Shown: positions 43,696 to 58,480 of the stretch, piece after piece
How the letters are laid out: each line of letters opens with the position of its first letter
How positions within the stretch are numbered: the stretch's first letter is position 1
Source of the DNA: Methylobacterium radiodurans
Lineage (GTDB): Bacteria; Pseudomonadota; Alphaproteobacteria; Rhizobiales; Beijerinckiaceae
DNA length: 64,000 nt
Reading direction: 5' to 3'
Assembly: GCF_003173735.1 (NCBI RefSeq)
Contig: NZ_CP029551.1
Location: 4,975,001-5,039,000, forward strand
Position numbers and translations under genes: made by a program
The notes under the pieces: generated by a model
What the model saw: only the letters and a program-made list of their open reading frames with translations
Told to the model about the DNA's origin: nothing
Databases searched by the model: none

Positions 43696-44160
43696 TCAGG
43701 CGCCCGGCACCGACCCCGGCGGCAGGAAATCGACTTCGCAAGTCGCGGAGCGGCGCACGACCTCCTCCGGATCCGTCAGGTCGTGGAGCTGGTCGAACAG
43801 CTCCTTCAGCCGCCGGCCGGGGCTGACCCAGAAGATCGCCCGGTTCGGCTTGTCGGTGCGGTTGTAATAGGCGTGCGGCTTGCCCTTCGGCATGCAGACG
43901 AGGTCGCCGACCTTCGCCTGGAGCCACTGACCGTCGAGATAGAGGTCAAAGGTGCCTTCCAGCACGTAGATGAACTCGTCCTGCGTCGGGTGGATGTGCG
44001 GCGGCACGAAGGTGCCCGGCGGATCGTAGGTCTCGAACGAGAAGGCGCTGTCGCTGTTCGCCTTGAACCAGTAGGTGTGGCCGAGAACGTTCCAGACGGT
44101 CCCGTCGACTCCTTCGCCGGCTCGGGTGATGCCAGCCGGAAGTGGTCCGATGTCGCTCAT
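43696..44160 (-). CDS. Cupin protein, possible dioxygenase
   Basis: A 154-residue single-domain cupin. Motif 1 is PPHIHPTQDEFIYVLEGTFDLYLDG (metal ligands His, His, Glu) and motif 2 is AKVGDLVCMPKGKPHAYYN (His); all four usual metal ligands are present. It has no signal peptide. It resembles quercetinase-like small cupins. It heads a minus-strand unit with the outer-membrane protein, divergent from an AraC regulator, with a pair of CTATCC operators 90 bases upstream. The same operator precedes the flavin monooxygenase gene, linking the two enzymes in one regulon. Confidence 0.85.
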   Translation of the reverse strand: MSDIGPLPAGITRAGEGVDGTVWNVLGHTYWFKANSDSAFSFETYDPPGTFVPPHIHPTQDEFIYVLEGTFDLYLDGQWLQAKVGDLVCMPKGKPHAYYNRTDKPNRAIFWVSPGRRLKELFDQLHDLTDPEEVVRRSATCEVDFLPPGSVPGA

Positions 44161-44248
44161 CTTTTCCTCGCTTTGCTGATTTTCTGGGCTGTCAATTCTG
44201 AATAACGGCGGCCTGTTTGGAGAAATAGTCAGGTTTCGGCCTCGGTCC

Positions 44249-44290
44249 GGCTATCCCATTCACGAGCCGGCTATCCGGATCGCGCAGGAA
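44249..44290. promoter_or_regulatory. Predicted AraC-type operator, copy A
   Basis: Contains GGCTATCCCATTCACG and GGCTATCCGGATCGCG, two direct CTATCC half-sites exactly 20 bases apart (44,251 and 44,271). A near copy lies at 47,049-47,090 with the same spacing. It is between the cupin and the AraC gene, about 90 bases from the cupin ATG. Confidence 0.75.
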
Positions 44291-44377
44291 AAGCGGGTCC
44301 TGCCGCGCGAGGGCCCTTGTGCTGGTTTTGCTGCCACAGGCACCATCCGGCGATGGGCCTGGACGACCGATGGGACC

Positions 44378-45412
44378 ATGGACGACGACGCGACCCGCGA
44401 CCCGAGACACCTGCCGAATGCCTCCCGTCCGCTTGCCCGCTACGCGCTGGTCGAGACCCGGGACCCCGAGGCGGCGCGCGACCGGATCGGCCGGATCTTC
44501 TGCCCGCACCGATTGATTCCGGTGGGCGCCGACGCCGCCTCCCTGTTCGAGGCGCGCCATCACACGGTGGGCTTCGGGGGCCTGACCATCAACTACGTCA
44601 CCTACGGCGCGGAAGTTGAGATCGATCCCGGCTTCCTCGACCGGTTCTTCCTGCTGCAGATCCCGCTCGCGGGCGCGGCCCTGGTGCGCAGCGGGCCGCA
44701 CGAAACGATCGCGGACATCGAGCGGGCGACCCTGCTCTCGCCGCTGCTGCCGACCCAGATGGTGTGGGAGGCCGGTTGCGAGAAGCTGATCATCCTCGTG
44801 CCGCGCGACCTCGCGGAGGAGCATATCGTGCGCGTCCTCGACCGCATCCCGAAGCCCTTCGGCTTCGATCCGGCGATCGATCTGCGGCGTCCGCGTGGGG
44901 CGGCGATCCTGTCCCAGGCCAAGCTCCTTCAGCACCTCGCCGAGAGCCGGACGCAGCCGGCTTGCGGCACGAACGTGTTCGAGAGCGAACTCGCCTCCGC
45001 CTTCGTCACCCTGCTGGTCGGGCACATGCTGGAGCACGCGGAAGGCAGCGGCACCCTGCTGCGGCCGCAACTTGTGTCGGTGGCGCCGTCCCACGTGCGC
45101 CGGGCCGAGGAGTATGTCCGCGCGCATCTCGACTCCGCTCTGACGCTGCCGCAGCTGTCCGAGGAGGCGGGGGTCAGCATCCGCTCGCTTCAGGACGGTT
45201 TTCGCCAGTTCCGGGACAGCACGATCTCGGACTTCATCCTGGCCCAGCGCCTCGACCGCTGGCGGGCGCTGCTGCTGGCCTCCGATCCGGAGGCCAAGGT
45301 CGGCGACCTCGCGCTCGCGGTCGGTCTCAACCATCTCGGCCGGGCGGCGGCCGCCTACCGCGACCGCTTCGGCGAGGTGCCGTCCCACACCCTGCGCAAC
45401 CGGCACCGCTGA
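44378..45412 (+). CDS. AraC-family transcriptional regulator
   Basis: A 344-residue regulator. Residues about 30-215 match the AraC_binding_2 domain seen in regulators of aromatic pathways (FCPHRLIPVGADAASLFEARHHTVGFGGLTINYVTYGAEVEIDPGFLDRFFLLQIPLAG). The C-terminal about 100 residues form two helix-turn-helix motifs (LTLPQLSEEAGVSIRSLQDGFRQFRDSTISDFILAQRLDRWRALLL, then VGDLALAVGLNHLGRAAAAYRDRFGEVPS). It is divergent from the cupin gene and convergent with the flavin monooxygenase, so it sits between two promoters carrying the CTATCC operator it probably binds. Confidence 0.92.
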   Translation: MDDDATRDPRHLPNASRPLARYALVETRDPEAARDRIGRIFCPHRLIPVGADAASLFEARHHTVGFGGLTINYVTYGAEVEIDPGFLDRFFLLQIPLAGAALVRSGPHETIADIERATLLSPLLPTQMVWEAGCEKLIILVPRDLAEEHIVRVLDRIPKPFGFDPAIDLRRPRGAAILSQAKLLQHLAESRTQPACGTNVFESELASAFVTLLVGHMLEHAEGSGTLLRPQLVSVAPSHVRRAEEYVRAHLDSALTLPQLSEEAGVSIRSLQDGFRQFRDSTISDFILAQRLDRWRALLLASDPEAKVGDLALAVGLNHLGRAAAAYRDRFGEVPSHTLRNRHR

Positions 45413-45435
45413 GGCGCGGCGCCGGTCGCGCGGGC

Positions 45436-46971
45436 TCAGGCGGCCCGCGGCGTCTCGACCGCCCGGAGACCGGCGGGCTGGGGCGCGGCGACCGCCTGAT
45501 AGGCCGGCGCCCGCTTGAGGAGTTCGGCGTAGACCGGGGGGCGCAGCGGCAGGAACGCGGCCGTGATCGGATTGCCCTCGCGGGTCCGCACGCCGATATC
45601 GGCCAGAAGCCCCGAGAAGTGGTGGTTGTGGTAGGGCGCGATGCAGAGGCCCCCATAGGCCTTGGCCGAGGGGCGCTCGCCGCGCCGCCACGCGAGCGAG
45701 CGGACGATGCCCGCCTCCATCTGCGCCCGGCTCGGCTGGCGCGCGAGCTGGCCGTCCATGAACCGCACCAGCCAGTTGGCGCCGAGTTCCGCCGAGAGGT
45801 TGGTGGCAAAGCTCGAATTGAAGCCGACGAAGCCGAGATCGGACAGGTCCGGGTTCACGATCATCCGGTAGAGCTTGTACTGGCCGTCCGCGTCGATGAG
45901 CTTGGCCCGGTCGGAGGCGTCGAGGATCGGGATCTCCTGGCGCCAGCCGGTGGCCATCACCACGAGGTCGGCCGGCACGCGCTGGCCCCCGGTCAGCACC
46001 GCGCTCTTGCCCTCGTAGGACGCGATGGTGCCCTGGATCGTGCGGATCTTGCCCTCGGTGACCAGCTTGTAGAAGCCTGGCGTCTCGACGGCGAGGTTGC
46101 AGTGGATGTCGTCCTCGATCCGGGTCTTGGGCAGCAGGCCATTCTTCTTCAGCTTGAACTGGGTCTTGAGCAGCGTCTCGAGCGCGCGCCAGTTCGCCCA
46201 GATCAGCGGGGTGGCGAGCCGCTGCACCAGGCGGCGGACCGGGCCGGCGTTGAAGGGCAGGAACATCGATTCCGCCGCGCGGCAATAGAGGATGTTCTTG
46301 AAGTTGATCAGCCCGCCGAAGAAGTAGGGAATCTTCCAGGCCGGATCCAGATAGACCAGCGTCACCCCTTCCGCGCCGTGCTTGACCGCGCTCACCGCCA
46401 CGTCGGTGGCCGATTTTGAGTAGCCGAGCACGATCACCCGCTTGCCCCGCACCGATTCGGCGTCGGTGTGCTCGCTCGAATGCAAGATCGCCCCACCCAT
46501 CGCGCGAAAGTCGTCGGCGCCCGGATGGACCGGCTTGTTCTTCTGGCTGAACTGACCGGTGCAGAGGGCGACGAAGTCGTAAGCCTCGGTCCGGCTCGCA
46601 CCGTCGGCGCCCGCCACCGTCACGTCCCAGCCGCGGTCGGCGCGCTTCTTCAGCGCGCTCACCGACTGGCCGAACCAGATCAGGGGGATGAGGCCAAAGC
46701 GCTCTGCATAGGCGCGCAGGTAGGCGAAAACCTGGCCCCCCGAGGGCCATTCCGGGTAATCGGCCGGCATCGGCATCTGGCTGAAGGCGTAGATGCCCTT
46801 CGGGGTCTGGGTCTTCACGTCGGGATAGGAGCGCGACGGATCCCACACGCCGCCGAGATCGGGGCCGCGCTCGATCACCGTGACGCGGTGGCCGCGCTCG
46901 CGAAAGGCTTTCGCTGCGGCGAGCCCGCTGATGCCGGAGCCGATGACGCAGACGTTGCGTTGCGTGACCAT
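45436..46971 (-). CDS. FAD-dependent flavin-containing monooxygenase
   Basis: A 511-residue FMO/Baeyer-Villiger-like flavoprotein. The FAD Rossmann motif is CVIGSGISGLAAAKAFRERGHRVTVIERGPDLGGVW. The NADPH motif is VIVLGYSKSATDVAVSAVKHG, and the segment before the second Rossmann reads GAILHSSEHTDAESV. ATGWRQEIPIL matches the ATG motif before the third strand. It would hydroxylate or insert oxygen into a small organic substrate with NADPH and O2. Its promoter shares the CTATCC operator with the cupin gene. The RBS GAGGAGGG precedes the ATG. Confidence 0.92.
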   Translation of the reverse strand: MVTQRNVCVIGSGISGLAAAKAFRERGHRVTVIERGPDLGGVWDPSRSYPDVKTQTPKGIYAFSQMPMPADYPEWPSGGQVFAYLRAYAERFGLIPLIWFGQSVSALKKRADRGWDVTVAGADGASRTEAYDFVALCTGQFSQKNKPVHPGADDFRAMGGAILHSSEHTDAESVRGKRVIVLGYSKSATDVAVSAVKHGAEGVTLVYLDPAWKIPYFFGGLINFKNILYCRAAESMFLPFNAGPVRRLVQRLATPLIWANWRALETLLKTQFKLKKNGLLPKTRIEDDIHCNLAVETPGFYKLVTEGKIRTIQGTIASYEGKSAVLTGGQRVPADLVVMATGWRQEIPILDASDRAKLIDADGQYKLYRMIVNPDLSDLGFVGFNSSFATNLSAELGANWLVRFMDGQLARQPSRAQMEAGIVRSLAWRRGERPSAKAYGGLCIAPYHNHHFSGLLADIGVRTREGNPITAAFLPLRPPVYAELLKRAPAYQAVAAPQPAGLRAVETPRAA

Positions 46972-47048
46972 GATCGTGACCCTCCTCGCTCGGGTGCCCC
47001 GTTCGGGGCGTTCCTCATGCAGGAAATGTCATCTCAGGCCGCCCGCGG

Positions 47049-47090
47049 AGCTATCCCGTACACGTGGCGACTATCCGGATTACGCAGCAA
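47049..47090. promoter_or_regulatory. Predicted AraC-type operator, copy B
   Basis: CTATCC half-sites at 47,051 and 47,071, 20 bases apart as in copy A. Shared bases between the copies include CTATCCC, CACG, CTATCCGGAT and CGCAG. It lies about 80 bases upstream of the flavin monooxygenase ATG, close to the 90-base distance of copy A from the cupin ATG. Confidence 0.75.
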
Positions 47091-47259
47091 TGCGCCGGAA
47101 ACTCAAATATTTGGCCTCTTTTCCGGGTGATTTGTTGGGATTTGGTGTTGTTGCGTTGCGGCATGGCCGTGAGCATGTGCAATATATCGGGCAGATTGCC
47201 TGCTCGGAACGCAGCCTGTGCTCAAGATTTGGCTTCTTCTTGATCGGCCGAACACGAAA

Positions 47260-47285
47260 AACCCGGCCCATCATGGGGCCGGGTT
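47260..47285. terminator. Rho-independent terminator, probably bidirectional
   Basis: A ten-base perfect stem AACCCGGCCC/GGGCCGGGTT with a six-base loop. On the minus strand it is followed by TTTTCG, and on the plus strand by GTTGTTTCTTC. It lies downstream of the hydrolase that ends the ligase operon (minus). Confidence 0.8.
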
Positions 47286-47321
47286 GTTTCTTCTCTGGGC
47301 CTGTTTGACGGATTCATTCCC

Positions 47322-47447
47322 TCCACCCCCCTCATCCTGAGGTGCGGAGCGAAGCGGAGCCTCGAAGGAGGGCTCCGGCAGTCGTTGCGATCCCTTGAGC
47401 CCTCCTTCGAGGCCGCTGACGCGGTACCTCAGGATGAGGGGGGTGGA
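47322..47447. repeat. Large palindromic interspersed repeat
   Basis: Two long arms: TCCACCCCCCTCATCCTGAG with CCTCGAAGGAGGGCTC further in, and the mirrored GAGCCCTCCTTCGAGG and CTCAGGATGAGGGGGGTGGA. The core (CTCATCCTGAGG and GCCTCGAAGGAGG) is a dispersed palindrome common in rhizobial and methylobacterial genomes. It lies just downstream of the hydrolase stop. Confidence 0.85.
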
Positions 47448-47475
47448 TGGCGGAGCCGGTCGGCGCCTCCCGACC

Positions 47476-48318
47476 TCAGCACAGAGCCGCGACGGCGCGG
47501 GCCAGCGTTCCGTCCGGCTCGCGCAGGCTCAGCGCGATGTCGAAGTGGTTGTAGCCCGGCATCGCGATCCGCTGCCCGACATGGCCGGCCCCAGTCCAGG
47601 CCCGGAGGTAGCGCTCGGTCTGGTCCTTGAAGGCGTCGCTCTCCAGCCCGCCGACGGAGGCGAGGAGCTGCGCCCGCGAGCGCCCGGGAATCACGTGGAG
47701 TGGGCTGTTGCGGCGGGCCGCCTCGGGGTCGAGGCGCATCCAGGCGTTGATGTGGGTGTGGATCAACGGCTCCAGATCCATCAGGCCCGAGAGCAGCAGC
47801 CCGGAGGCGACCGCGTCCTCCAGCACGCCGAACGCATTTTGCCAACCGCTGGCCAGCAGCATGCCCCCGAGATGCCCACCGGCCGAGGAGCCGCCGACAT
47901 GGATGCGGCGCCCCTCAAAGCCGTAGCGGCCGGCCTCGGCTTGCAGCCACGCCAGCGCTGTGCGGGTCTGGCGCACGATCTCGTCGAGATCGGCGGCGGG
48001 GGCCAGCGCGTAGTTCATCACCGCCACCGAGACGCCGTTCGGCACGAGGCCGAGGGCCGGGAAGGCGTTGTCGTCCTTCGACAGGGCACGCCAGTAGCCG
48101 CCGTGAATCCACAGGAACAGCGGGCTGCTTGGGCCTGCAGGGTAGAGGTCGAGGGTCTGGCCCGAGGCCGTGTCGTAGACGAGGTCCGCCACCCGCTCCA
48201 GGCGCGACACCGCCTCGACGCTCGCCGCGACGTAGCGGGCGTACTCCGTCTCGAAGCTCGGGACGCTGGCGCGTGCGTTGTACTCGCGGTCGAGCCGGTC
48301 GCGGTCCTCGGGCGTCAT
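47476..48318 (-). CDS. Alpha/beta hydrolase, arylformamidase-like
   Basis: A 280-residue alpha/beta hydrolase related to the BNA7/KynB-type kynurenine formamidases and esterases with the HGGYW motif (LFLWIHGGYWRALSKDDNAF). The nucleophile elbow is HVGGSSAGGHLGGML (GxSxG as G-S-S-A-G), with a C-terminal His in MPGYNHFDIAL. An N-terminal YNARASVPSFETEYARYVAAS is typical of the formamidase-like group. It is the last gene of the ligase operon, with only two bases between it and the RidA-like gene. Hydrolysis of an N-acyl or N-formyl anthranilate is a reasonable guess. Confidence 0.85.
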   Translation of the reverse strand: MTPEDRDRLDREYNARASVPSFETEYARYVAASVEAVSRLERVADLVYDTASGQTLDLYPAGPSSPLFLWIHGGYWRALSKDDNAFPALGLVPNGVSVAVMNYALAPAADLDEIVRQTRTALAWLQAEAGRYGFEGRRIHVGGSSAGGHLGGMLLASGWQNAFGVLEDAVASGLLLSGLMDLEPLIHTHINAWMRLDPEAARRNSPLHVIPGRSRAQLLASVGGLESDAFKDQTERYLRAWTGAGHVGQRIAMPGYNHFDIALSLREPDGTLARAVAALC

Positions 48319-48320: not shown

Positions 48321-48743
48321 TCACTCCGGCACCACGGCGGTCGCCTCGATCTCGACGAGCGCCGGCGGCTCGACGAGGCGCACCACCTGCACCAGCGCCA
48401 TGGCCGGGAAATGCGCACCGAATACGTTGCGGTAGACGCCGCCGAGATCGCGGCGGGCTTCGAGATAGGCGTCCATGTCGGTGACGTACCATGTCAGGCG
48501 CACGAGGTGGTGCGGCTCGGCGCCGGCCTCGGCCAGGATCGCCCGGATGTTGCTGAGCGCCTGATGCACCTGCGCGACGATCCCCTCGGGGAAGCGCTCG
48601 TCCGCGTCCCAGCCGACGACGCCGCCGGTGACGACGAGCCGGCCGGTGGCGGCCATGCCGTTGGCGTAGCCGCGGGGCGCCGGCCAGCCGGCGGGCTGCA
48701 GGATGGCGGCGCCTTGCGGCCGGATGTCGGTCATGATGCTCAC
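48321..48743 (-). CDS. RidA/YjgF-like protein lacking the catalytic Arg
   Basis: A 140-residue Rid-family trimer-forming protein: YANGMAATGRLVVTGGVVGWDADERFPEGIVAQVHQALSNIRAILAEAGAEPHHLVRLTWYVTDMDAYLEARRDLGGVYRNVF and ALVEIEATAVV. True RidA has an Arg in PARS for 2-aminoacrylate or imine deamination; here the segment reads HFPAMALVQVV, with Met at that place. It therefore belongs to a Rid subgroup without known deaminase activity. The genetic link to an enamine-producing CoA pathway is suggestive. It overlaps the thioesterase gene by four bases. Confidence 0.88.
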   Translation of the reverse strand: MSIMTDIRPQGAAILQPAGWPAPRGYANGMAATGRLVVTGGVVGWDADERFPEGIVAQVHQALSNIRAILAEAGAEPHHLVRLTWYVTDMDAYLEARRDLGGVYRNVFGAHFPAMALVQVVRLVEPPALVEIEATAVVPE

Positions 48744-49231
48744 GGGGTGTCTCCGGATGCTGTCGGAAGGCTTTGGCCGTCGCGGTAGTGCTCGGCCGCC
48801 GCACGCAGGTCGTCGGGAAGGGGAATGGCGCGGCGCTCAGTGAGCGAGGTGGTGACGATGACGAGGCGGGCGGCGATCACGGGCGCGTCGTCGCGAAACC
48901 CGCTCACCGCGAGGTCGAGCGAGGCGCCGCCGACGCGGGCGACCCGCACGAACACGTCGAGACGGTCGTTCCAGAAGCCGGGCCGGAGGAAGTCGGCCTC
49001 GGCGTGTCCGTAGCCGAGGCCGATGCCGCGGGTCTGGTGGAAGGCCTGGTAATCGAGCCCGAGCGCGTTGGTGAACCAGTCCTCCACGACGCCGTTCAGC
49101 AGGTCGAACCAGCGCGGGAAGTAGACGATGCCGGCCGGATCGCAGTGCGAGAAGCGCACGCGCACCGGCGCGCCGAACAGGCCGGCCTGATCCGCTCGCG
49201 CCGGCGGCGCCGCGCGGGCCGGAGCGCTCAT
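48740..49231 (-). CDS. Hotdog-fold acyl-CoA thioesterase, 4-hydroxybenzoyl-CoA type
   Basis: A 163-residue hotdog-fold thioesterase. The active-site motif is RVRFSHCDPAGIVYFPRWFDLLNGVVEDWF (the Asp in HCDPAGIVY), as in 4-hydroxybenzoyl-CoA thioesterase. The central strand GLGYGHAEADFLRPGFWNDRLDVFVRVARVGGASLDLAVSGF is regular. It probably releases CoA from an aromatic or ring-reduced acyl-CoA, either as a pathway step or as protection against CoA trapping. The ATGA overlaps both neighbours by four bases in the order ligase, thioesterase, RidA-like. Confidence 0.9.
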   Translation of the reverse strand: MSAPARAAPPARADQAGLFGAPVRVRFSHCDPAGIVYFPRWFDLLNGVVEDWFTNALGLDYQAFHQTRGIGLGYGHAEADFLRPGFWNDRLDVFVRVARVGGASLDLAVSGFRDDAPVIAARLVIVTTSLTERRAIPLPDDLRAAAEHYRDGQSLPTASGDTP

Positions 49232-50880
49232 GCCGTCACCACCAGGGGCGCGGGCTCGGCAGCCTCTTCGACGGCGCGCAGGCGTAAGGCGAAGCGCTGG
49301 ATCTTCCCGGAGGCGGTCTTGGGCAGGCTGTCGACGAAGGCGACGGCGCGGGGATACTTGTAGGGCGCGATCTCGGCCTTGACGAAGTCCTGCAACGTTT
49401 TGGCCGGGGCCTCGGCACCGGGGGCACGGACGACGTAAGCCTTGACGATGGTGCCGCGCTCGGGGTCGGGCGCGCCGACGACGGCGCATTCGAGCACGTC
49501 GGGATGGCGCAGGAGCACCGCCTCCACCTCCGGCCCGGAGATGTTGTAGCCGGAGGAGACGATCATGTCGTCGCAGCGGGCCTGATACCAGAAGTAGCCG
49601 TCCTCATCCATGAGGTAGCTGTCGCCGGGATAGTTCCAGCCATCGACGACGTAGCTGCCCTGGCGCGGGTCGGCGAGGTAGCGGCAGCCGGTGGGGCCGC
49701 GGACGGCAAGACGACCGATCGTGCCGGGAGGAACCTCGCGGCCCGCCTCGTCCACCACGCGGGCCTCGTAGCCCGGCACCGGGCGGCCGGTGGCGCCGGG
49801 GCGCACCTCGTCCTCGGGCGAGGCGAGGTAGATGTGGAGCATCTCGGTGCCGCCGATGCCGTCGAGCAGCGTCCGGCCGGTGGCGGCCTTCCAGGCGTCG
49901 AAGGTCGCGCGGCTGAGCGACTCGCCCGCCGAGATGCAGCGGCGCAGCGACGACAGGTCGTAGGCGGCGAGCTTGGCCAGCATCGCCCGGTAGGCGGTCG
50001 GCGCGGTGAAGCAGATGGTCGCTCGCTCGCGCCCGATCGCCAGCGCCAGATCCTCGGGCCCGGCCCGCTCCAGCACCACCGCCGAGCCGCCGACCCGCAT
50101 CGGAAACAGGATGATGGCGAGGCCGAAGGTGAAGGCGAAGGGCGCCGAGCCGATGAAGCGGTCGTCGGGCCCGGCGCGCACCACGTGGCGGGCATAGGTG
50201 TCGCAGATCGCCAGCAGATCGCGGTGGAAGTGCATCGCGCCCTTGGGCTCGCCGGTCGTGCCCGAGGTGAAGGCGATGAGGCAGACATCGTCCGCGGCGG
50301 TGTCGGCCGCGGTGAAGGCCGGGCTCTCGCCGGCCATCAGGGCTTCGAGCGAATCCGGCCCGCCGCCCCAGTACACGATGCGCTCCAGCCCCGGCGCGTG
50401 GGCGCGGGCGCCCTCCATCTCCTGCGCGAGGCGATGGTCGCACAAAGCGATGGCGATGCGGGCCTTTTCGAGCGGATAGGCAATCTCGCGGGCCCGCAGC
50501 AGCGGCATGGTGGCCACCACCACGCCGCCGGCCTTCAGCACGGCGAGGTAGGTCGCCACCATCATCGGCGTGTTGCCCGAGCGCAGGAGCACGCGGTTGC
50601 CGGGCTTGAGGCCGAGCCGGTTCACCAGCACGTTGGCGATGCGGTTCACCCGCTCGAGCAATTGCCGGTAGGTCAGCGATTCATGTTCGCCAATCAGGCA
50701 CAGGGCATGGCCGCGGCCCTCCGCGATCCAGCGGTCGAGGAGGTGCGTCACGCAGTTCAGGCGGCGCGGATATCGCAATTCCGGCAGCGCGAAGATCAGG
50801 TCGGGCCAGGAGTCGCGCGGGGGGAGGTGGTCGCGGGCGAAGGTGTCGATCGCCTTGGCCGGCTCGGAGGTCGCATCCAC
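49228..50880 (-). CDS. 2-Aminobenzoate-CoA ligase (benzoate-CoA ligase family)
   Basis: A 550-residue AMP-forming ligase. The AMP-binding motif is IAFTSGTTGEPKGAMHFHRD, the A8 hinge region is YQARCDDMIVSSGYNISGPEVEAVLL, and the catalytic Lys lies in LPKTASGKIQRFALR. The pattern DGIGGTEMLHIYLASPEDEVRPGATGRPVPGYEARVVDE is typical of benzoate/2-aminobenzoate-CoA ligases. It activates the aromatic acid for the divergent monooxygenase/reductase. I choose GTG at 50880: it has GAGGG seven bases upstream and starts at DATSEPAK, whereas the longer frame to 50970 would run through the operator palindrome. Confidence 0.92.
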   Translation of the reverse strand: MDATSEPAKAIDTFARDHLPPRDSWPDLIFALPELRYPRRLNCVTHLLDRWIAEGRGHALCLIGEHESLTYRQLLERVNRIANVLVNRLGLKPGNRVLLRSGNTPMMVATYLAVLKAGGVVVATMPLLRAREIAYPLEKARIAIALCDHRLAQEMEGARAHAPGLERIVYWGGGPDSLEALMAGESPAFTAADTAADDVCLIAFTSGTTGEPKGAMHFHRDLLAICDTYARHVVRAGPDDRFIGSAPFAFTFGLAIILFPMRVGGSAVVLERAGPEDLALAIGRERATICFTAPTAYRAMLAKLAAYDLSSLRRCISAGESLSRATFDAWKAATGRTLLDGIGGTEMLHIYLASPEDEVRPGATGRPVPGYEARVVDEAGREVPPGTIGRLAVRGPTGCRYLADPRQGSYVVDGWNYPGDSYLMDEDGYFWYQARCDDMIVSSGYNISGPEVEAVLLRHPDVLECAVVGAPDPERGTIVKAYVVRAPGAEAPAKTLQDFVKAEIAPYKYPRAVAFVDSLPKTASGKIQRFALRLRAVEEAAEPAPLVVTA

Positions 50881-50940: not shown

Positions 50941-50996
50941 AGGCTTAAAGCATATTGCCTCCGGGCGCAATATGCTTTAAGCCTGAAACATATTGC
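50941..50996. promoter_or_regulatory. 18-bp palindromic operator plus third half-site
   Basis: AGGCTTAAAGCATATTGC (50,941-50,958), an eight-base spacer, then its exact reverse complement (50,967-50,984). A third, imperfect half-site follows as GCCTGAAACATATTGC (50,981-50,996). It sits between the divergent ligase and monooxygenase genes, an ideal place for the MarR-type regulator encoded downstream. Confidence 0.85.
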
Positions 50997-51035: not shown

Positions 51036-53447
51036 ATGGGAGATGTCACCAGCGCGGTTGCCGACGGTTCCGGCCTTCGCCCGAACGAGACGAGCCGCAA
51101 GCCCCTGCGCATCGCCGTCGTCGGCGCCGGGCCAGCGGGGCTCTACCTCTCCATCCTGGTCAGGAAGCGGTTTCCCGACGCGCAGATCACCGTCTACGAG
51201 CGCAACCGGGCCGACGACACGTTCGGCTTCGGCGTGGTGTTCTCGGACGCCACCCTCGACATCTTCGAGCGCTACGACCCCGAGAGCTACGCCCGCATCA
51301 CGGAAGAATTCGCCTACTGGGACGACATCGCCATCCACGTGAAGGGCGAGGTGCACCGCATAGGCGGCAACGGTTTCTGCGGCTGCGCCCGCGCCACGCT
51401 GCTCACCATCCTTCAGGAGCGCGCCCGCGCGCTCGGCGTCGAGATGATTTTTCAGACGGAAGTCGATGCGGAGGATTTCGACGACCACGACCTCGTGGTC
51501 GTCGCCGACGGCATCAACAGCGCCTACCGGCAGCGCCATTCCGAGCATTTCGGCACCTCGGTCGATCTGCGCCCGAACCGCTTCGTTTGGATGGGCTCGA
51601 CGAGGCCGCTCGACGCCTTCACGTTCCTGTTTCGCGAGACCGAGTGGGGCCCGTTCATCGCCCACGCCTACCAGTACGAGCGCGGGCGGTCGACCTGGGT
51701 GTTCGAGACCGACCCGGACACCTTCGAGCGCGCGGGGCTGGGTGGGCTCGACGAGGCGGGCTCCGCCGCCTTCATGTGCCAGGTTTTCGCCGACTTCCTC
51801 GGCGAGCACGAGGTGCTGACCAACCGCTCGATCTGGCGGCAATTCCCGATGATCCGCAACGCCCGCTGGGTGCGCGGCAACCGGGTTCTGCTGGGCGACG
51901 CTAAGGCGACCGCGCATTTCTCGATCGGCTCCGGCACCAAGCTTGCCATGGAGGACGCCATCGCCCTCTACGAGGCGCTGGTGGCCGAAGCCGAGGTTCC
52001 GGCGGCGCTGACCCGTTTCGAGAAGGGGCGGCGCGAGGAGGTGGAGAAGATCCAGCACGCGGCCGACGTCTCGCTCGTCTGGTTCGAGCACGTGGCGCGC
52101 TACCTCGATTTCGAGCCTGTGCAGTTCGCCTTCGGGGCGATGACTCGGGCCAAGGCCATCACCTACGACAACCTGCGCCTGCGGGCGCCCGGCTTCGTCG
52201 CGCGGATGGACCGCGCCTTCGCCGAGGGCGTCCGGAAGCAGGGCTTCGACGTGCCGCTCGACGAGCCCGCCGCGCCGATGTTCCAGCCGCTGCGCCTACG
52301 CGAGATGGTGGTCCCCAACCGCGTGGCGATGTCGCCGATGTGCCTATATTCCGCGCAAGACGGCGTGCCGAACGACTTCCACCTCGTCCATTACGGCTCC
52401 CGCGCCATCGGCGGGCCGGGCCTGATGTTCACCGAGATGACCTGCGTCGCGCGCGACGCCCGCATCACGCCGGGCTGCGCCGGGCTGTGGAACGACGAAC
52501 AGGAGGCGGCCTGGGCCCGCATCGTGGACTTCGTCCACGCCCAATCGGCCACGAATTTCTGCCTCCAGCTCGGCCATGCCGGGCGCAAAGGCGCGACCAA
52601 GCTGATGTGGGAGGGCATCGACCGGCCGCTCGAAGCGGGCGGCTGGGAGGTGATGTCGGCCTCAAGCCTTCCGTACTTTCCCGACAGCACCGTGCCACGG
52701 GAAATGAATCGTGCCGACATGGACACGGTAATCACGGACTTCGTCCTGGCCACGGAGCGGGCCGAGCGCGCCGGCTTCGACATGCTGGAACTGCACTGCG
52801 CCCACGGCTACCTGCTGGCGAGCTTCCTCTCTCCGCTGACCAACCACCGCACCGACGCCTATGGCGGCAACATCGAGAACCGCCTGCGCTTCCCCCTCGA
52901 GGTCTTCATCGCGATGCGCGCGGCGTGGCCGGCGCATAAGCCGATGTCGGTGCGCGTCTCGGCGACCGACTGGGCCGAGGGCGGTCTGACGCCGGAGGAC
53001 TCGGTTGCGATCGCGAGCGCCTTCCGCGAGGCCGGCGTCGATCTCGTCGACGTCTCCACCGGCCAGACCGCCACGGTCTCGCGCCCGCTCTACGGCCGGA
53101 TGTTCCAGACGCCGTTCGCCGAGCGCATCCGCAACGAGGCCGGCACCGCGACGATGTGCGTGGGCAACATCACGACGCCGGACCAGATCAACACCATCCT
53201 GGCGGCGGGCCGGGCCGATATCGTGGCGCTCGGCCGCCCGCATCTCTCCGACCCCGGCTTCACCCTGCGGGCCGCCGCCTGGTACGGCGCGAAGGACATC
53301 CACTGCCCGCCGCAATACGCGCCGGGCAAGGATCAGGTTTTTCGCAATTCCGTGCGCGACCGGGCCGACCTCGAAGACCTCAAGGCGCGCGGGCGGCCCA
53401 AGACCCGGGCCGAACTGCGGTCGCCAGCCGCCACGGTCGCCTCGTGA
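51036..53447 (+). CDS. 2-Aminobenzoyl-CoA monooxygenase/reductase (fused flavoprotein)
   Basis: An 803-residue two-domain enzyme. The N-terminal about 400 residues are an FAD aromatic hydroxylase ([30 protein letters not shown], a GD-like [24 protein letters not shown]). From about residue 420 an Old Yellow Enzyme-type reductase follows ([69 protein letters not shown]). This fusion is the aerobic enzyme of Azoarcus anthranilate degradation, which hydroxylates and then dearomatises 2-aminobenzoyl-CoA; salicylyl-CoA hydroxylases are close relatives. The ATG at 51036 has GGGAGGG upstream. It is divergent from the ligase. Confidence 0.93.
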
Positions 53448-54049
53448 ACGGGAGCGTGGCCGCCCGCATTTGCGTTGCCCCGCGAAATCGGGCTGATGAC
53501 GCCCGAAGCGTTCAGCGGGCCGGGGTCTTGGATTTGGGCGAGGCGGTCGAAGGTGACGAGGCGACCGGGGGGCGGGACACGCGCACGGCGGTGCGGGCGT
53601 GGCTACGCCTCCTCACCTGCACCACGCTGATCGAGAACGAGATTCGCTCGCGCCTGCGCGAGCAGTTCGACTTCACCCTGCCGCGCTTCGACCTGCTGGC
53701 CCAGCTCGACAAGGCTGAGGACGGGCTCGTGCTCGGGGAGGCCTCCAAGCTCCTGATGGTCTCGGCCGGCAACGTCACCGCGGTGGTCGAGAAGCTCCTC
53801 GTCAGCGGCTACATCACCCGCCAGCCCTCGCCGACCGACCGCCGCGTCCAGATCATCCGCCTGACGCATGCGGGCCGCGCCGCCTTCCGCACCATGGCGG
53901 AGGCGCATCACGGCTGGGTCGAGGAGCTGTTCGGCGGGCTCTCGGACGAGGAGACGGCGACCTTGACCGACAGCCTCGCCCGGCTCAAGCGCTCGGCGCA
54001 GGGGCGGATCGAACCTCGCGAACCGGCCCGGCGGCGGGCGGGCGCATAG
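53444..54049 (+). CDS. MarR-family transcriptional regulator
   Basis: A MarR regulator whose winged-helix core is [38 protein letters not shown], then [55 protein letters not shown] (the DRR wing is intact). Aromatic acids or their CoA esters are the usual ligands. The GTG at 53444 overlaps the monooxygenase stop by four bases; a TTG near 53528 would shorten the unusual N-terminal tail. It is the likely repressor of the adjacent ligase/monooxygenase promoter and perhaps of the 54.7 kb operon. The ligand is inferred from context. Confidence 0.88.
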
Positions 54050-54160: not shown

Positions 54161-54559
54161 TTACGGCACCGGCCGCGCCCGCCCCGCTTCATCGAGTGCG
54201 ACCGAGACGAACAGCGCCTCGACCACGCGCCGCCGCTCCCCGCCGGCCGGTGAGCCCGCGAAGCCGTCGAGCTTGAGCCGCATCGAGCTGCGGCCGACCG
54301 ACTCGACCTGCCCGTAGACCGAGAACTCCTCCCCGACCTTCAAGGCCGCGACGAAGCGCAGGTTTTCGACCGCGACCGTGGCGCAAGCGCCTTTCGCGCG
54401 CCGCATCCCGAGCAGGCCGGCGGCCTTGTCGAGTTCGGCCATGATCCAGCCGCCGAACACGCCGCCGTTGAGATTCGCCTCCGACGGCAGGGTCAAGGTG
54501 CGCAGCAGCGGCAGGGCTTTTTCGGTGTCCGCCGCGTCCCGCACCGATGTCTCGCTCAT
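54161..54559 (-). CDS. Acyl-CoA thioesterase (YciA/PaaI-like hotdog)
   Basis: A 132-residue hotdog-fold thioesterase. LRTLTLPSEANLNGGVFGGWIMAELDKAAGLLGMRRA holds the N-x-x-G-x-x-FGGW motif and the catalytic Asp typical of YciA-type acyl-CoA thioesterases. Then come CATVAVENLRFVAALKVGEEFSVYGQVESVGRSSMRLKLDGF. It is the second thioesterase in the aromatic block but in the opposite orientation, convergent with the MarR gene and divergent from the 54.7 kb operon. The substrate is unknown; release of CoA from a medium-chain or ring-derived acyl-CoA is likely. Confidence 0.88.
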   Translation of the reverse strand: MSETSVRDAADTEKALPLLRTLTLPSEANLNGGVFGGWIMAELDKAAGLLGMRRAKGACATVAVENLRFVAALKVGEEFSVYGQVESVGRSSMRLKLDGFAGSPAGGERRRVVEALFVSVALDEAGRARPVP

Positions 54560-54628: not shown

Positions 54629-54702
54629 AGCTTCAAGCTTGAAATTTCCCTTGACACCGTGGCGCAGCGGCGGCCTTATGTTGAAAGCTTCAATCTTGAA
54701 GC
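54629..54702 (+). promoter_or_regulatory. Promoter flanked by two GCTTCAA-N2-TTGAAGC operators
   Basis: Operator 1 (54,629-54,645) reads AGCTTCAA-GC-TTGAAAT and operator 2 (54,687-54,702) reads GCTTCAA-TC-TTGAAGC. A -35 TTGACA (54,651) and a -10 near CTTATG (54,675) lie between them. This geometry suits a dimeric MarR-type repressor covering the promoter of the 54.7-58.5 kb operon. Confidence 0.75.
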
Positions 54703-54732: not shown

Positions 54733-55518
54733 ATGTCCGAGATTCGCCTCCATCTCTTCCAGACTGGCAGCCTCGGCTGCCGCCGTCAGGACATCTACCT
54801 GAACCAGGGCCTGGGCGAGCCCTTCGAGATTCCGGTGCCGTGGTACCTCGTCACGCATCCGCGCGGGCACGTGGTGATCGACGGCGGGTTTCCGGCGGTC
54901 TGTTCCACCGATCCGCGCGGGCATTGGGGACCGGTCGCGGAGGTGTTCGAGCCCCGCGTCGCGCCGGGGCAGGATTGCGCGGCGCAGATGCGGGCGGCGG
55001 GCTTCGATCCGGCCGATGTCCGCACCGTGCTGCTGTCGCATCTCCATCTCGACCATACCGGCGCGATCGGCGTCTTCCCGAACGCCCGCCACGTCGTCCA
55101 GCGCGCGGCGCTCGACTACGCGCTCGCGCCCGACTGGTTCTGCGCCGGCGCCTTCGTTCGGGCCGATTTCGACCGGCCGGGCCTCGACTGGTGCCTGCTC
55201 GACGAGGCGTGGGGCGATTTCTTCGATCTCTACGGCGACGGCGTGATCACCTGCATCCGCTCCCCTGGCCACACTTTCGGGCATCAATCCTTCCTCGTGC
55301 GCACCCCGCGCGGCGCGACGCTGCTGGCGATCGATGCCGCCGACACGATGGACCACTGGGAGGACCGGGCGCTGCCCGGCGCCGTCACCTCCGTGACCGA
55401 GGCGGTGCGCTCCGTCGCCAAGCTGCGCGCGGTGGCCGAGCGGGCGCAGGCCCGCGTGGTGCCGGGGCACGACCCCGCCCTGTGGCCGAGGCTGGCCCAA
55501 TACCCTGCCTTCACCTGA
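54733..55518 (+). CDS. Metallo-beta-lactamase-fold hydrolase, AHL-lactonase-like
   Basis: A 261-residue metallo-beta-lactamase protein. The zinc motif is LLSHLHLDHTGAIG (HxHxDH), with a further His in SPGHTFGHQSF and an Asp in LLAIDAADTMDHW; the C-terminal VVPGHDPALW supplies the last His. The fold resembles AttM/AiiB N-acylhomoserine lactonases and gamma-butyrolactonases. In this operon a role in opening a lactone or cyclic intermediate of ring catabolism is more plausible than signal quenching. It has the RBS GGGAGGAACG and heads the operon, with the two operators just upstream. Confidence 0.88.
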   Translation: MSEIRLHLFQTGSLGCRRQDIYLNQGLGEPFEIPVPWYLVTHPRGHVVIDGGFPAVCSTDPRGHWGPVAEVFEPRVAPGQDCAAQMRAAGFDPADVRTVLLSHLHLDHTGAIGVFPNARHVVQRAALDYALAPDWFCAGAFVRADFDRPGLDWCLLDEAWGDFFDLYGDGVITCIRSPGHTFGHQSFLVRTPRGATLLAIDAADTMDHWEDRALPGAVTSVTEAVRSVAKLRAVAERAQARVVPGHDPALWPRLAQYPAFT

Positions 55519-55534
55519 CACTCGGAGACACGGC

Positions 55535-56380
55535 ATGAAGCTGCTGCGATACGGAGAGCCCGGTGCCGAGCGCCCCGGCCTCCTCGACGCCGAGGGCCGC
55601 ATCCGCGACCTTCGCGACCACGTGACCGACATCGCCGGGCCGTTCCTCACGGACGAGAGCCTCGCGCGCCTGCGCGCCCTCGATCCCGCCCGCCTGCCGC
55701 TGGCGGAAGGCACGCCCCGCATCGGCGCCTGCGTCGGCGCCATCGGCAAATTCGTCTGCGTCGGCCTGAACTACGCCGACCACGCCGCCGAGACCGGCAA
55801 GCCCGCCCCCGACGAGCCGGTGCTGTTCATGAAGGCGACGAGCGCCGTCTGCGGCCCGAACGACGCTGTCGAGATTCCGCGCGGCTCCCAGAAGACCGAC
55901 TGGGAGGTCGAACTCGGCATCGTCATCGGCCGCCGCGCCAAGCACGTCGCGCGGGCGGAGGCGCTGGATCACGTTGCCGGCTACTGCGTCGTCAACGACG
56001 TGTCCGAGCGCGCCTTCCAGTCCGAGCGCGGCGGCCAGTGGACCAAGGGTAAGAGCGCCGACACCTTCGGCCCGCTCGGCCCCTGGCTGGTGACGCGGGA
56101 CGAGGTGCCCGATCCGCAGGCCCTCGGCCTCTGGCTCGATGTCGACGGCGTGCGCCGCCAGACCGGCACCACCGCGCGAATGATCTTCGGCGTCGCCGAA
56201 CTCATCAGCTACATCAGCGGGTTCATGACCCTCCATCCGGGCGACGTGATCGCCACCGGCACCCCGCCCGGCGTCGGCCTCGGCCAGAAGCCGCCGGTCT
56301 TCCTGCGGCCCGGCCAGACCATGCGGCTCGGCATCGACGGGCTCGGCGAGCAGCATCAGGCCGTGATCCAGGTGGAGTGA
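55535..56380 (+). CDS. Fumarylacetoacetate hydrolase (FAH) family protein
   Basis: A 281-residue FAH-family hydrolase/lyase. Family motifs are VGLNYADHAAETG, EPVLFMKATSAVCGPNDAVEIPRGSQKTDWEVELGIVIGRRA (metal ligands in the E-x-E pattern), YCVVNDVSERAFQ, and HPGDVIATGTPPGVGLGQKPPVFLRPG. Relatives cleave C-C bonds in 2,4-dioxo acids or hydrolyse ring-cleavage products, with Mg2+ or Mn2+. It lies 16 bases after the metallo-hydrolase and one base before the SDR start. It probably performs the carbon-carbon cleavage of the dearomatised intermediate. Confidence 0.9.
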   Translation: MKLLRYGEPGAERPGLLDAEGRIRDLRDHVTDIAGPFLTDESLARLRALDPARLPLAEGTPRIGACVGAIGKFVCVGLNYADHAAETGKPAPDEPVLFMKATSAVCGPNDAVEIPRGSQKTDWEVELGIVIGRRAKHVARAEALDHVAGYCVVNDVSERAFQSERGGQWTKGKSADTFGPLGPWLVTRDEVPDPQALGLWLDVDGVRRQTGTTARMIFGVAELISYISGFMTLHPGDVIATGTPPGVGLGQKPPVFLRPGQTMRLGIDGLGEQHQAVIQVE

Positions 56381-56381
56381 G

Positions 56382-57167
56382 ATGGACGCCTTTTCCGATC
56401 TCAGGGGCAAGGCCGCCCTCGTCACCGGCGGCAGCCGCGGCCAGGGCGCCGCGCAGGCGCGGCTGCTGGCGCAATCCGGCGTCGCGGTCACGATCTGCGA
56501 CGTGCTGGCCGACGTGGGCGAGACCTATGCCACGAGCCTTCGGGACGAGGGGCTGGAGGTTCGCTTCCAGGCCGCCGACGTCACGGCGCCGGAGGGCTGG
56601 GACGCGCTCGTGGCGGGCGCGCTCGCGTGGCGCTCGCGCCTCGACATCCTCGTCAACAATGCCGGCATCATCAACCGCACCGGCGTGGCGGCGACCGATC
56701 TCACCGCCTGGAACCGGGTGCTCGCCGTCAACCTCACCGGCGCCTTCCTCGGCATCCGCGCGGTCGCGCCCGCGATGCGCGACGCGGGCGGCGGCAGCAT
56801 CGTCAACATCGCCTCGAACTCGGCCTTCTCGGGCCATGCCGACCCGGCCTACACCGCGAGCAAGTGGGGCCTGCGCGGGCTCACCAAGACCGCGGCGATG
56901 GAACTCGTGGCCGACCGCATCCGCGTCAACGCGGTCTGCCCCGGCCTCGTCGTGACCGGCCTCAACGCCGGCTCGCCACACCTCGCCCCGATGATCGGCC
57001 TGACACCGATGGGTCGCGCGGGCGAGCCCGACGAGGTCGCTCGCCTCGTCCGCTTCCTGGCGAGCGAGGAGGCGAGCTTCATCACCGGGGAGGATTTCGT
57101 GATTGACGGCGGCTTCACCGCGGGCGCCGCCTATCGCCGCGTCGCCGTTGAGACCAGCCTTCTGTGA
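56382..57167 (+). CDS. Short-chain dehydrogenase/reductase
   Basis: A 261-residue classical SDR. TGGSRGQGAAQARLLAQSG is the cofactor motif (GGSRGQG), NNAGIIN the second, NIASNSAFSGH carries the catalytic Ser, and YTASKWGLRGLTKTAAMEL the Tyr and Lys. FVIDGGFTAG closes the fold. It probably oxidises or reduces a hydroxy or keto intermediate. It is immediately downstream of the FAH gene. Confidence 0.9.
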   Translation: MDAFSDLRGKAALVTGGSRGQGAAQARLLAQSGVAVTICDVLADVGETYATSLRDEGLEVRFQAADVTAPEGWDALVAGALAWRSRLDILVNNAGIINRTGVAATDLTAWNRVLAVNLTGAFLGIRAVAPAMRDAGGGSIVNIASNSAFSGHADPAYTASKWGLRGLTKTAAMELVADRIRVNAVCPGLVVTGLNAGSPHLAPMIGLTPMGRAGEPDEVARLVRFLASEEASFITGEDFVIDGGFTAGAAYRRVAVETSLL

Positions 57168-57169
57168 TC

Positions 57170-57290
57170 ATCTAGAGCCGTATCCGACCTGATTGCATCA
57201 GGCCGGCGTCTCTCGGTTCTTGTTTTGCCGCGCATTCTCGCGACGAACCGGTTTCCACTTCGTCGGAATGCGCACTAACGGAGGAAATAC
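57170..57290. repeat. Degenerate interspersed intergenic element
   Basis: Reads like a dispersed Rhizobiales element: a CTAGAG end, the inverted repeat CCTGATTGCATCAGG, then TTCTTGTTTTGCCGCGCATTC and ACCGGTTTCCACTTCG. It fills the 125-base gap between the SDR and cupin genes. I recognise the layout from memory; its copy number needs a genome search. Confidence 0.55.
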
Positions 57291-57292
57291 GC

Positions 57293-57724
57293 ATGTCCGA
57301 TCACGTAAAACCCATCGTCACCCGTGCCGGCCAGGAGGACACCCGGACGGGCCAGTCCGGCGGCGCCGTGCGCGTCTCCGGCGTCAGCCCGCAGCACACG
57401 CCCGCCACGCGCATCTGGTACGGCAAGGTCAGCAACGAGCCGGGCTACCGCTCGCTGCCGCACCATCACGGCGAGGCCGAGACCGGCGGCTACGTGCTGA
57501 AAGGCCAGGCGCGGATCTATTTCGGCGCGGACTACGCCGAGTACATCGACATGAGCGAGGGGGACTTCGTGTTCGTGCCACCCTTCATGCCCCACGTGGA
57601 GGCGAACATGAGCCGAGACGTCGAACTCGTCTGGCTGACGGCGCGCACGCCGGAGAACATCGTGGTCAACCTCGACGACGTGACGGATGCGAGCCTGCCC
57701 GGCTACGTCCGGCCCGGAGCCTGA
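57293..57724 (+). CDS. Cupin protein
   Basis: A 143-residue single cupin. Motif 1 SLPHHHGEAETGGYVLKGQARIYFG has the His, His, Glu ligands; motif 2 MSEGDFVFVPPFMPHVEAN has the last His. It resembles the His-rich cupin at 30,207 without its tail. It lies after the repeat element and four bases before the last SDR. A metal-dependent isomerase, lyase or dioxygenase role in the same pathway is possible. Confidence 0.88.
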   Translation: MSDHVKPIVTRAGQEDTRTGQSGGAVRVSGVSPQHTPATRIWYGKVSNEPGYRSLPHHHGEAETGGYVLKGQARIYFGADYAEYIDMSEGDFVFVPPFMPHVEANMSRDVELVWLTARTPENIVVNLDDVTDASLPGYVRPGA

Positions 57725-57727
57725 GCT

Positions 57728-58480
57728 GTGGACAACGTTCGCCACGCGGTCGTCACCGGTGGCGCCCGCGGCATCGGCCGCGCCATCGCCGAGCGCCTCG
57801 TCCGCGACGGGGCAACCGTGACGATCCTCGGCCGCAATGCCGAGGCGCTGGGGCGGGCCGTCACCGAAGGTGCCGCGCATCATGCGCTCGCCCTCGACGT
57901 GACGGACGGGCTGGCGGTCGCCCGCGCCTTCGCGGAGATCGCCGCGCGCACGCCCATCGACATCCTCGTGGCCAATGCCGGGGCGGCGGAGTCTGCTCCC
58001 TTCGGCCGCAGCGAGCCGGCTCTGTTCCAGCGGATGCTCGACGTGAACCTGTTCGGCACCGTCCACGCCGCGCGAGCCGTGCTGCCGGGCATGTCGGCGC
58101 GGGGGTTCGGCCGGATCGTCGCGGTCGCCTCGACCGCCGGGCAGAAGGGCTACCCCTACGTCTCGGCCTATTGCGCGGCCAAGCACGCGGTGGTCGGCCT
58201 CGTCCGCTCGCTCGCCCAGGAGACCGCCCGCAGCGGCGTCACCGTCAACGCGGTCTGCCCCGGCTTCACCGACACCGACATCGTCGGCGACAGCCTGGAG
58301 CGGATCGTGGCAACGACCGGCCGGGACCGCGACGCGGCCCTGGCCTCGCTCGTGCGCCACAACCCGCAAGGGCGCCTCGTCCGCCCCGAGGAAGTCGCCG
58401 ACGCGGTCGCGTGGCTGTGCGGCGCGGCATCGAGCGCCATCACGGGACAGACGATCGCGGTGGCCGGTGGCGAGGTCTGA
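57728..58480 (+). CDS. Short-chain dehydrogenase/reductase, second of the operon
   Basis: A 250-residue SDR starting with GTG. The cofactor motif is VTGGARGIGRAIAERLV, the Ser is in VASTAGQKGYPY, the Tyr/Lys pair in YCAAKHAVVGLVRSLAQE, and the end reads AITGQTIAVAGGEV. It resembles 3-hydroxybutyrate and cyclic hydroxyacyl-CoA dehydrogenases. It is the last gene of the aromatic block before the island end. Confidence 0.9.
   Translation: MDNVRHAVVTGGARGIGRAIAERLVRDGATVTILGRNAEALGRAVTEGAAHHALALDVTDGLAVARAFAEIAARTPIDILVANAGAAESAPFGRSEPALFQRMLDVNLFGTVHAARAVLPGMSARGFGRIVAVASTAGQKGYPYVSAYCAAKHAVVGLVRSLAQETARSGVTVNAVCPGFTDTDIVGDSLERIVATTGRDRDAALASLVRHNPQGRLVRPEEVADAVAWLCGAASSAITGQTIAVAGGEV

Follow-up and report, generated by a model that had tools for sequence, protein, structure and literature searches.

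A candidate monooxygenase-cupin upper module beside the 2-aminobenzoyl-CoA genes of Methylobacterium radiodurans

Results

A gene cluster of Methylobacterium radiodurans, located in a 64,000-nucleotide stretch (contig NZ_CP029551.1, positions 4,975,001 to 5,039,000; hereafter the window) of a single-contig genome of 5,539,695 bases, joins a 2-aminobenzoate-CoA ligase and AbmA, the 2-aminobenzoyl-CoA monooxygenase/reductase fusion, to a class B flavin-containing monooxygenase (FMO), a quercetinase-like cupin (cupin A) and an alpha/beta hydrolase. We tentatively read this locus, with a chance that we judge slightly short of even, as a chromosomal alphaproteobacterial counterpart of the quinaldine and alkylquinolone clusters, in which an AraC-controlled upper module would oxidise an N-heteroaromatic compound and hand anthranilate to the 2-aminobenzoyl-CoA pathway. 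The gene content, the linkage of cupin A to the FMO, the repeat shared upstream of both, the co-occurrence with AbmA and the homologies of the hydrolase and the ligase are computed observations.

In the scheme that we propose, a porin-like outer-membrane protein would admit the compound and the FMO would hydroxylate its hetero-ring, at C-3 of an indole or a 4-quinolone. Cupin A, acting as a metal-dependent quercetinase-type dioxygenase, would then open the hetero-ring to an N-acylanthranilate (formyl or longer), from which the hydrolase would free anthranilate. The ligase, AbmA, RidA and the thioesterases would process anthranilate onward, and an FAH-family hydrolase, a second, distinct cupin (cupin B) and two SDR proteins would finish the ring in place of an enoyl-CoA hydratase/acyl-CoA dehydrogenase set. 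We infer every reaction of the FMO and cupin A, their substrate, the acyl group removed by the hydrolase and the lower branch; judged by sequence, the substrate may be an indole, a quinolone or an aminophenyl ketone.

The FMO-cupin module keeps company with AbmA

A search for the FMO at 1e-100 in three families (198, 149 and 149 genomes) gave 30 matches including the window; the flanks of the 29 others mostly extend about 9 kb to each side. A cupin lay within 1.4 kb of the FMO in 29 of the 30 matches and directly adjoined it (at most 210 bp) in 27, and an AraC gene lay within 1 kb in 29. The exceptions were L120, in which no AraC gene was found, and L105, in which the FMO is 37-39% identical and stands without a cupin. 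Seen from the other side, an FMO of at least 50% identity occurs in 12 of 80 AbmA loci from genome contigs, each time (12/12) with a cupin within 1.4 kb.

AbmA lay within the flanks of the module in 14 of the 30 matches. Co-occurrence at the level of genomes was counted in two of the three families (f24, f1 and f2), namely f24 and f1, the latter being the window's own. AbmA was present in all ten f24 genomes with the FMO, against 67 of 198 overall (chance 1.2e-5), and in all six f1 genomes with the FMO, against 59 of 149 (chance 3.3e-3); these chance values ignore kinship, the f24 sample holding one genome per genus and the f1 six coming from three genera. One of the ten f24 genomes (G506) is that of L105, with its 39% FMO and no cupin. 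The gene order around the module varies between Methylorubrum, Tardiphaga, Bradyrhizobium, Sagittula and the La 6 plasmid, indicating that module and AbmA came together, or stayed together, on several occasions. The sequence-only reading is supported in that the monooxygenase and the cupin form a unit with a shared operator candidate and are tied to the anthranilate core. That the two simply adjoin an ordinary anthranilate cluster without belonging to it is hardly credible to us: the same core does exist without the pair, in M. aquaticum (L063), and modules exist without an anthranilate-CoA gene nearby (a Phaeobacter plasmid, L095, L112 and L121), but the co-occurrence with AbmA in 16 of 16 genomes of two families and the linkage in several different gene orders argue against it.

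The company of AbmA could also mean that the pair handles a side product, removing a toxic or dead-end product of AbmA activity and supplying no substrate. Indeed, AbmA accompanies the FMO in all 16 genomes even when the module lies far from it, and the divergent AraC protein resembles AndR, a regulator of an anthranilate pathway, although its score against NF041686 (170.7 of 350 bits) is below the equivalog cut-off. We nevertheless consider such a role improbable: most AbmA genomes show no FMO at 1e-100 (57 of 67 in f24, 53 of 59 in f1), M. aquaticum manages the same core without the pair, and the pair has its own regulator and, in the window, a porin-like gene.

The flavin monooxygenase (PF00743) and the cupin with a full set of metal ligands, both named in the sequence-only reading, are present. 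The ligands H55, H57, E62 and H96 of cupin A are invariant in an alignment of 44 sequences, and its nearest structures, among the matches listed, are quercetinases, in agreement with the earlier likening to these enzymes. Like the quercetinases QueD and YxaG, cupin A combines a cupin fold that spans almost its full length with a 3His-1Glu site; the identity in structural alignments, however, is only 19-24%. According to parts of PMC6479552, quercetinases act on 3-hydroxyflavones, in a chemistry that parallels the cleavage of 3-hydroxy-4-quinolones. Dihydroxyacetophenone dioxygenase was not among the 50 matches listed for the structure search with cupin A, a result of no weight either way. The best sequence matches of the FMO include PDB entry 8z12, on which a literature search found no paper.

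A second pair stands beside AbmA in Bradyrhizobium and Tardiphaga (L009:12437-14262 and L013:12520-14320), consisting of an FAD monooxygenase of PhzS-like type and a cupin that shares 50% identity with cupin A. The best PDB matches of the monooxygenase in Bradyrhizobium are 3c96 and 2rgj, which we take to be PhzS. A PqsH-like identity was not borne out; AqdB1, the alkylquinolone monooxygenase, matched at only 27%.

Candidate regulatory repeats

The regions upstream of cupin A and of the FMO share a 41-base stretch, at 80% identity. Both copies hold GGATAG-N14-GGATAG with identical spacing, 90 bases (cupin A) and 79 bases (FMO) before the start codon, and at one mismatch or fewer the repeat occurs exactly twice in the window, whereas random sequence of equal dinucleotide composition would be expected to hold 0.15 copies. 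In five related loci with the module there are nine copies, all of them before cupin A (5/5) or the FMO (4/5; the copy is missing in L004), and L063, which is without the module, has none. A direct repeat with a 20-base period fits an AraC protein, and the divergent AraC-family regulator may bind at both sites.

The gap between the ligase and abmA carries a different repeat, a palindrome whose half-site, with up to three mismatches allowed, occurs nowhere else in the window and which is retained in L004-L007, L063 and L119. Two TTCAAGCTTGAA-type palindromes, unlike the one in the ligase/abmA gap, lie upstream of the AttM gene (54630-54702); four of the five relatives examined have two copies and L007 has one. 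The single regulon first envisaged for the whole set was rejected: the AraC-type repeat stands only before cupin A and the FMO, and two other repeats occupy the ligase/abmA gap and the AttM promoter. The locus looks like at least two regulons and, as part of the ligase operon, which is preceded by a different palindrome and not by the AraC-type repeat, the hydrolase seems to follow the core and not the module. A 25-base inverted repeat (96%) is also found at 47319-47450, in the gap between the hydrolase and the FMO.

The 2-aminobenzoyl-CoA core

The core named in the sequence-only reading was confirmed: the ligase scores 389 bits against TIGR02262 (cut-off 375) and AbmA 1082.5 bits against NF006101 (cut-off 1078), with both fusion domains found. 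A MarR regulator and RidA are both present, as in the abm cluster of Azoarcus evansii, which comprises a ligase, AbmA, MarR, RidA and beta-oxidation genes. The ligase and thioesterase genes overlap by ATGA, the thioesterase and RidA genes by GTGA, and the RidA/hydrolase junction reads GTGACGATG; these start/stop overlaps support translational coupling along the chain. The hydrolase is therefore coupled to the ligase operon as had been claimed, not directly but through thioesterase and RidA.

NF006101 is named for salicylyl-CoA 5-hydroxylase in NCBIfam, and the core might accordingly degrade salicylate, with the FMO and cupin A acting on a flavonoid-like compound, akin to the 3-hydroxyflavones of quercetinases, to give an O-acylsalicylate. 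This we regard as highly improbable. RidA lies in the operon, tryptophan dioxygenase/kynureninase genes occur in related clusters (Sagittula, L104, L115 and L118), and the ligase is 52% identical to that of pAL1, the quinaldine plasmid of Arthrobacter sp. Rue61a. Parts of PMC3534580 report that anthranilate-CoA ligase activity was demonstrated for the pAL1 ligase, that Rue61a did not grow on salicylate and that it degrades anthranilate solely via the CoA route. All together, these points favour anthranilate over salicylate and support an assignment of the core to the anthranilate-CoA pathway.

A homologue of the quinaldine-cluster hydrolase

The hydrolase is 38.4% identical to the pAL1 hydrolase over 276 residues (185 bits), which we take to be Amq, the N-acetylanthranilate amidase. 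Its S145, E226 and H258 align with S, E and H at positions S155, E235 and H266 of the pAL1 protein, presumably the catalytic triad in Amq numbering. In a midpoint-rooted tree it groups with proteins of pAL1, Tistrella and Leisingera (support 89/84, below the strict mark), apart from homologues beside tryptophan dioxygenase/kynureninase or in the FMO operons that other families carry. Among its close relatives, one bears the UniRef name N-octanoylanthranilate hydrolase (P0125; 8000 candidates scored); AqdA1 of the alkylquinolone pathway matches at only 27% over 131 residues.

A kynurenine formamidase role in this genome was rejected, tryptophan dioxygenase and kynureninase being absent: neither PF03301 nor TIGR01814 had a match in the genome, while 2 and 10 of 14 genomes gave matches as controls. 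In L104, L115 and L118, distant hydrolase homologues adjoin tryptophan dioxygenase/kynureninase genes. A homologue follows the FMO by 49-174 bp in L101, L102 and L104; in L101 the AraC, cupin, FMO and hydrolase genes form one run, and AbmA is absent from the stretch examined. A 68% identical homologue lies directly beside AbmA in G797, a genome without an FMO at 1e-100.

Comparison with known clusters

The sequence-only reading knew of no described cluster with this set. Both pAL1 and pRLCBG43, which carries the alkylquinolone aqd genes of Rhodococcus erythropolis BG43, join a monooxygenase, a dioxygenase, a hydrolase, a ligase and AbmA; what stands of the claim is that the first two steps there belong to other enzyme families. 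In addition to the hydrolase and the ligase, pAL1 shares with the window a monooxygenase, a dioxygenase, an MFS carrier, AbmA (51%), RidA, FAH (43%) and cupin B (74%), but it is a plasmid with PaaX-type regulators, and it has a molybdenum quinaldine oxidase, a class A FAD monooxygenase and the Hod-type MeqE in place of the class B FMO and cupin A. The same logic is found on pRLCBG43, where aqdA1B1C1 has AbmA, ligase, RidA, FAH and cupin B (79%) as neighbours, with AqdB a class A monooxygenase and AqdC a Hod-type dioxygenase. Searched at 1e-3, the 64-kb window gave no match to MeqE, AqdC1 or AqdB1, and MeqD matches the FMO over 35 residues only; the window enzyme is of PF00743 and not the class A FAD 3-monooxygenase of the meq/aqd pathway. 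The window thus differs from the meq and aqd clusters in steps one and two, and this difference is the new part.

The abm clusters of Azoarcus evansii and of Bradyrhizobium and Microvirga relatives share ligase, AbmA, MarR, RidA and SDR2 with the window; near AbmA, however, most relatives have an enoyl-CoA hydratase or acyl-CoA dehydrogenase, where the window has FAH, SDR1, cupin B and a lactonase. The indole (iif/ind) and indole-3-acetate (IAA; iad) clusters feed anthranilate, by enzymes other than an FMO and cupin A. In parts of PMC6221969, the iif enzymes are described as a two-component oxygenase IifC/D, an SDR (IifB) and the cofactor-independent IifA, and the anthranilate that Cupriavidus SHE derives from indole then enters a 2-aminobenzoyl-CoA cluster; the iad route passes through isatin, as stated in a portion of PMC9613470. 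At about 10 kb from abmA, the La 6 plasmid (L097:1-6000) carries genes for a 2-oxoacid ferredoxin oxidoreductase and a member of the cyclase family, a combination reminiscent of the IAA-degrading iad loci. In the isoflavone (ifc) cluster of Variovorax V35, the monooxygenase IfcA acts first and the cupins IfcD1 and IfcD2 later, on a pyranone (PMC11069340, in part); a monooxygenase and two cupins are found there as in the window, whereas substrate and flanking pathway differ.

A possible lower branch without beta-oxidation genes

The genes for FAH, SDR1 and cupin B appear to take the place of beta-oxidation genes as the lower branch of the 2-aminobenzoyl-CoA pathway. The La 6 plasmid has a counterpart of cupin B at 71% identity, besides those of pAL1 (74%) and pRLCBG43 (79%), whereas AbmA reaches only 47-51% in these three; FAH is 40-68% identical to FAH genes in the BG43, pAL1 and La 6 clusters. 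An SDR2 homologue of at least 45% identity occurs in 69 of 80 AbmA loci, at 53-69% in Bradyrhizobium and Tardiphaga. We compared 98 AbmA loci (AbmA at least 45% identical, window excluded, loci L001-L003 and L086-L092 left out, some contigs repeated, for example L013 and L109) for genes near AbmA. Eight have cupin B and FAH without an enoyl-CoA hydratase or acyl-CoA dehydrogenase of 50% identity, 72 have either of the latter without cupin B, 18 have neither (L119 is counted here though cut off at the AttM gene) and none has both. This exclusion has a Fisher value of 1e-5 that ignores kinship and repeats, and five of the eight loci are from Methylorubrum or Methylobacterium. No beta-oxidation gene was found at 50% identity near AbmA in L004-L007 and L063, nor among the window genes examined for it, and the genome's hydratase-like proteins do not exceed 32% identity to the hydratase of the Bradyrhizobium cluster. 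A CoA ester, possibly cyclohexanedione-carboxyl-CoA, was observed in Rue61a according to part of PMC3534580. FAH and cupin B may thus be the enzymes that open the dioxo-ring expected after the RidA step. The AttM-family lactonase inside the lower operon is found, among the loci tabulated, only in L004-L007, L063 and L119.

Gene map and surroundings

All genes named in the sequence-only reading are open, of full family length and correctly placed (Table 1). The set from cupin A to SDR2 recurs with its order unchanged in four other Methylorubrum/Methylobacterium contigs (L004-L007), showing that the arrangement is not due to chance, and the Phenol_MetA_deg gene is retained in L004-L007 and L119. 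The nearest AbmA relatives are likewise on Methylorubrum and Methylobacterium contigs. The trait is patchy, the FMO being found at 1e-100 in two of seven sampled genomes of the same genus.

A tyrosine integrase gene (58916-61399) directly follows SDR2 and may mark a mobile edge; there is no tRNA nearby (only a tRNA-Gln, at 20426). Elsewhere in the window, positions 32051-40086 hold a TPP enzyme, an aldehyde dehydrogenase, an MFS carrier and a sigma-54 two-component pair, perhaps a catabolic cluster of aryl-glyoxylate type judging by content alone, and positions 22402-31620 hold NMT1-type ABC transporter genes, luciferase-like monooxygenases, an acyl-CoA-dehydrogenase-like protein and another cupin.

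Table 1. Features of the locus, in window coordinates.
Feature	Position	Strand	Basis
Outer-membrane Phenol_MetA_deg protein, porin-like	42637..43620	-	PF13557, E 1.1e-55; directly downstream of cupin A
Cupin A, quercetinase-like monocupin	43696..44160	-	PF07883, E 2.7e-20; 3His-1Glu site
AraC-type operator candidate, GGATAG-N14-GGATAG	44250..44290	-	90 bp upstream of cupin A
AraC-family regulator, AndR-like, divergent	44378..45412	+	NF041686, E 5.7e-50; PF14525, PF12833
Class B flavin-containing monooxygenase (FMO)	45436..46971	-	PF00743, E 8e-40
Second AraC-type operator candidate	47050..47090	-	79 bp upstream of FMO
Amq-like alpha/beta hydrolase, candidate N-acylanthranilate amidase	47476..48318	-	PF20434/PF07859; HGGYW; S145, E226, H258
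RidA-family enamine/imine deaminase	48321..48734	-	PF01042
4HBT-type thioesterase	48740..49231	-	PF13279
2-aminobenzoate-CoA ligase, start approximate	49228..50880	-	benz_CoA_lig, TIGR02262
Palindrome GGCTTAAAGCATATTGC/GCAATATGCTTTAAGCC with weaker third half-site, MarR-type operator candidate	50944..50996	.	ligase/abmA gap
AbmA, 2-aminobenzoyl-CoA monooxygenase/reductase fusion	51036..53447	+	NF006101; FAD_binding_3 and Oxidored_FMN
MarR-family regulator, start approximate	53591..54049	+	PF12802
YciA-like acyl-CoA thioesterase	54161..54559	-	PF03061; PRK10694 below cut-off
AttM-family MBL-fold lactonase	54733..55518	+	NF045700, 404 bits (cut-off 390)
FAH-family hydrolase, candidate lower branch	55535..56380	+	PF01557
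SDR1	56382..57167	+	PF13561; 59% to La 6 SDR
Cupin B (HHHGEAE ... H), candidate lower branch	57293..57724	+	71-79% to cupins near AbmA elsewhere
SDR2	57728..58480	+	PF00106

Discussion

The relatives of the locus suggest that the FMO-cupin pair makes anthranilate, or an N-acyl form of it, from an N-aromatic compound, by enzymes other than those of the quinaldine and quinolone clusters. Several points weigh against the upper-module reading. Class B FMOs are not the usual quinolone 3-hydroxylases, pAL1 and BG43 both using class A enzymes, and no substrate is known for any FMO or cupin A homologue in our results; moreover, cupins are functionally diverse, so that a shared fold shows no function. 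AbmA was not found in the examined flanks of 16 of the 30 FMO matches, and the GGATAG repeat (at most one mismatch) occurs in only three of 21 more distant loci (L013, L121 and L123). Finally, the hydrolase lies outside the AraC-type repeat and has no match at 1e-40 in three of the six f1 genomes with the FMO. It is therefore not an obligate partner of the pair; considering also its homologue in G797, it most likely serves N-acylanthranilates in general.

The position of the hydrolase would suit a different route, in which the FMO and cupin A yield anthranilate directly from an open-chain 2-aminophenyl ketone such as 2'-aminoacetophenone. The FMO would convert the ketone into an alpha-hydroxy ketone, which the cupin would cleave to anthranilate and formate, with 2,4'-dihydroxyacetophenone dioxygenase as the model, and the hydrolase, unmatched at 1e-40 in half of the f1 FMO genomes and outside the AraC-type repeat, would serve other N-acyl or ester substrates. 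Moreover, 2'-aminoacetophenone is a kynurenine product, and the module lies near tryptophan dioxygenase/kynureninase genes in L084, L104, L115 and L118. We think this route unlikely, given that the nearest structures of cupin A among the matches listed are quercetinases and that the hydrolase homologue placed 49-174 bp after the FMO in three loci would be unneeded.

As for the sequence-only reading, it is partly supported: our results strengthen its direction and correct its details, namely a single regulon, the lack of any described cluster and an obligatory hydrolase. Also in its favour are the relationship of the hydrolase to the quinaldine-cluster enzyme and the absence of a kynurenine route from the genome. 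The substrate, the CO and the formate of its scheme stay conjectural.

A broader proposal, possible though on balance doubtful, is that the FMO-cupin pair represents a hitherto undescribed route to anthranilate, present in several families, in which a class B FMO would hydroxylate an N-heteroaromatic compound and a metal-dependent quercetinase-type cupin would cleave the ring, a task that falls to the cofactor-free Hod/AqdC, of a different fold, on quinaldine and quinolone plasmids. The PhzS-like monooxygenase and its sister cupin would be a second version in Bradyrhizobium and relatives, and Methylorubrum-type loci would use the cupin B/FAH lower branch instead of beta-oxidation.

The company that the FMO keeps with AbmA, in 16 of 16 genomes of two families, gives a clear and inexpensive test. 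Cupin B and FAH, for their part, draw attention to how the ring is opened in the aerobic 2-aminobenzoyl-CoA pathway, steps that to our knowledge are not settled. If the upper-module reading is true, plant-associated bacteria would possess, in a matched enzyme pair, a metal-cupin route for opening rings of the indole or quinolone type, and this would affect signals such as indole, auxin-like compounds and quinolones.

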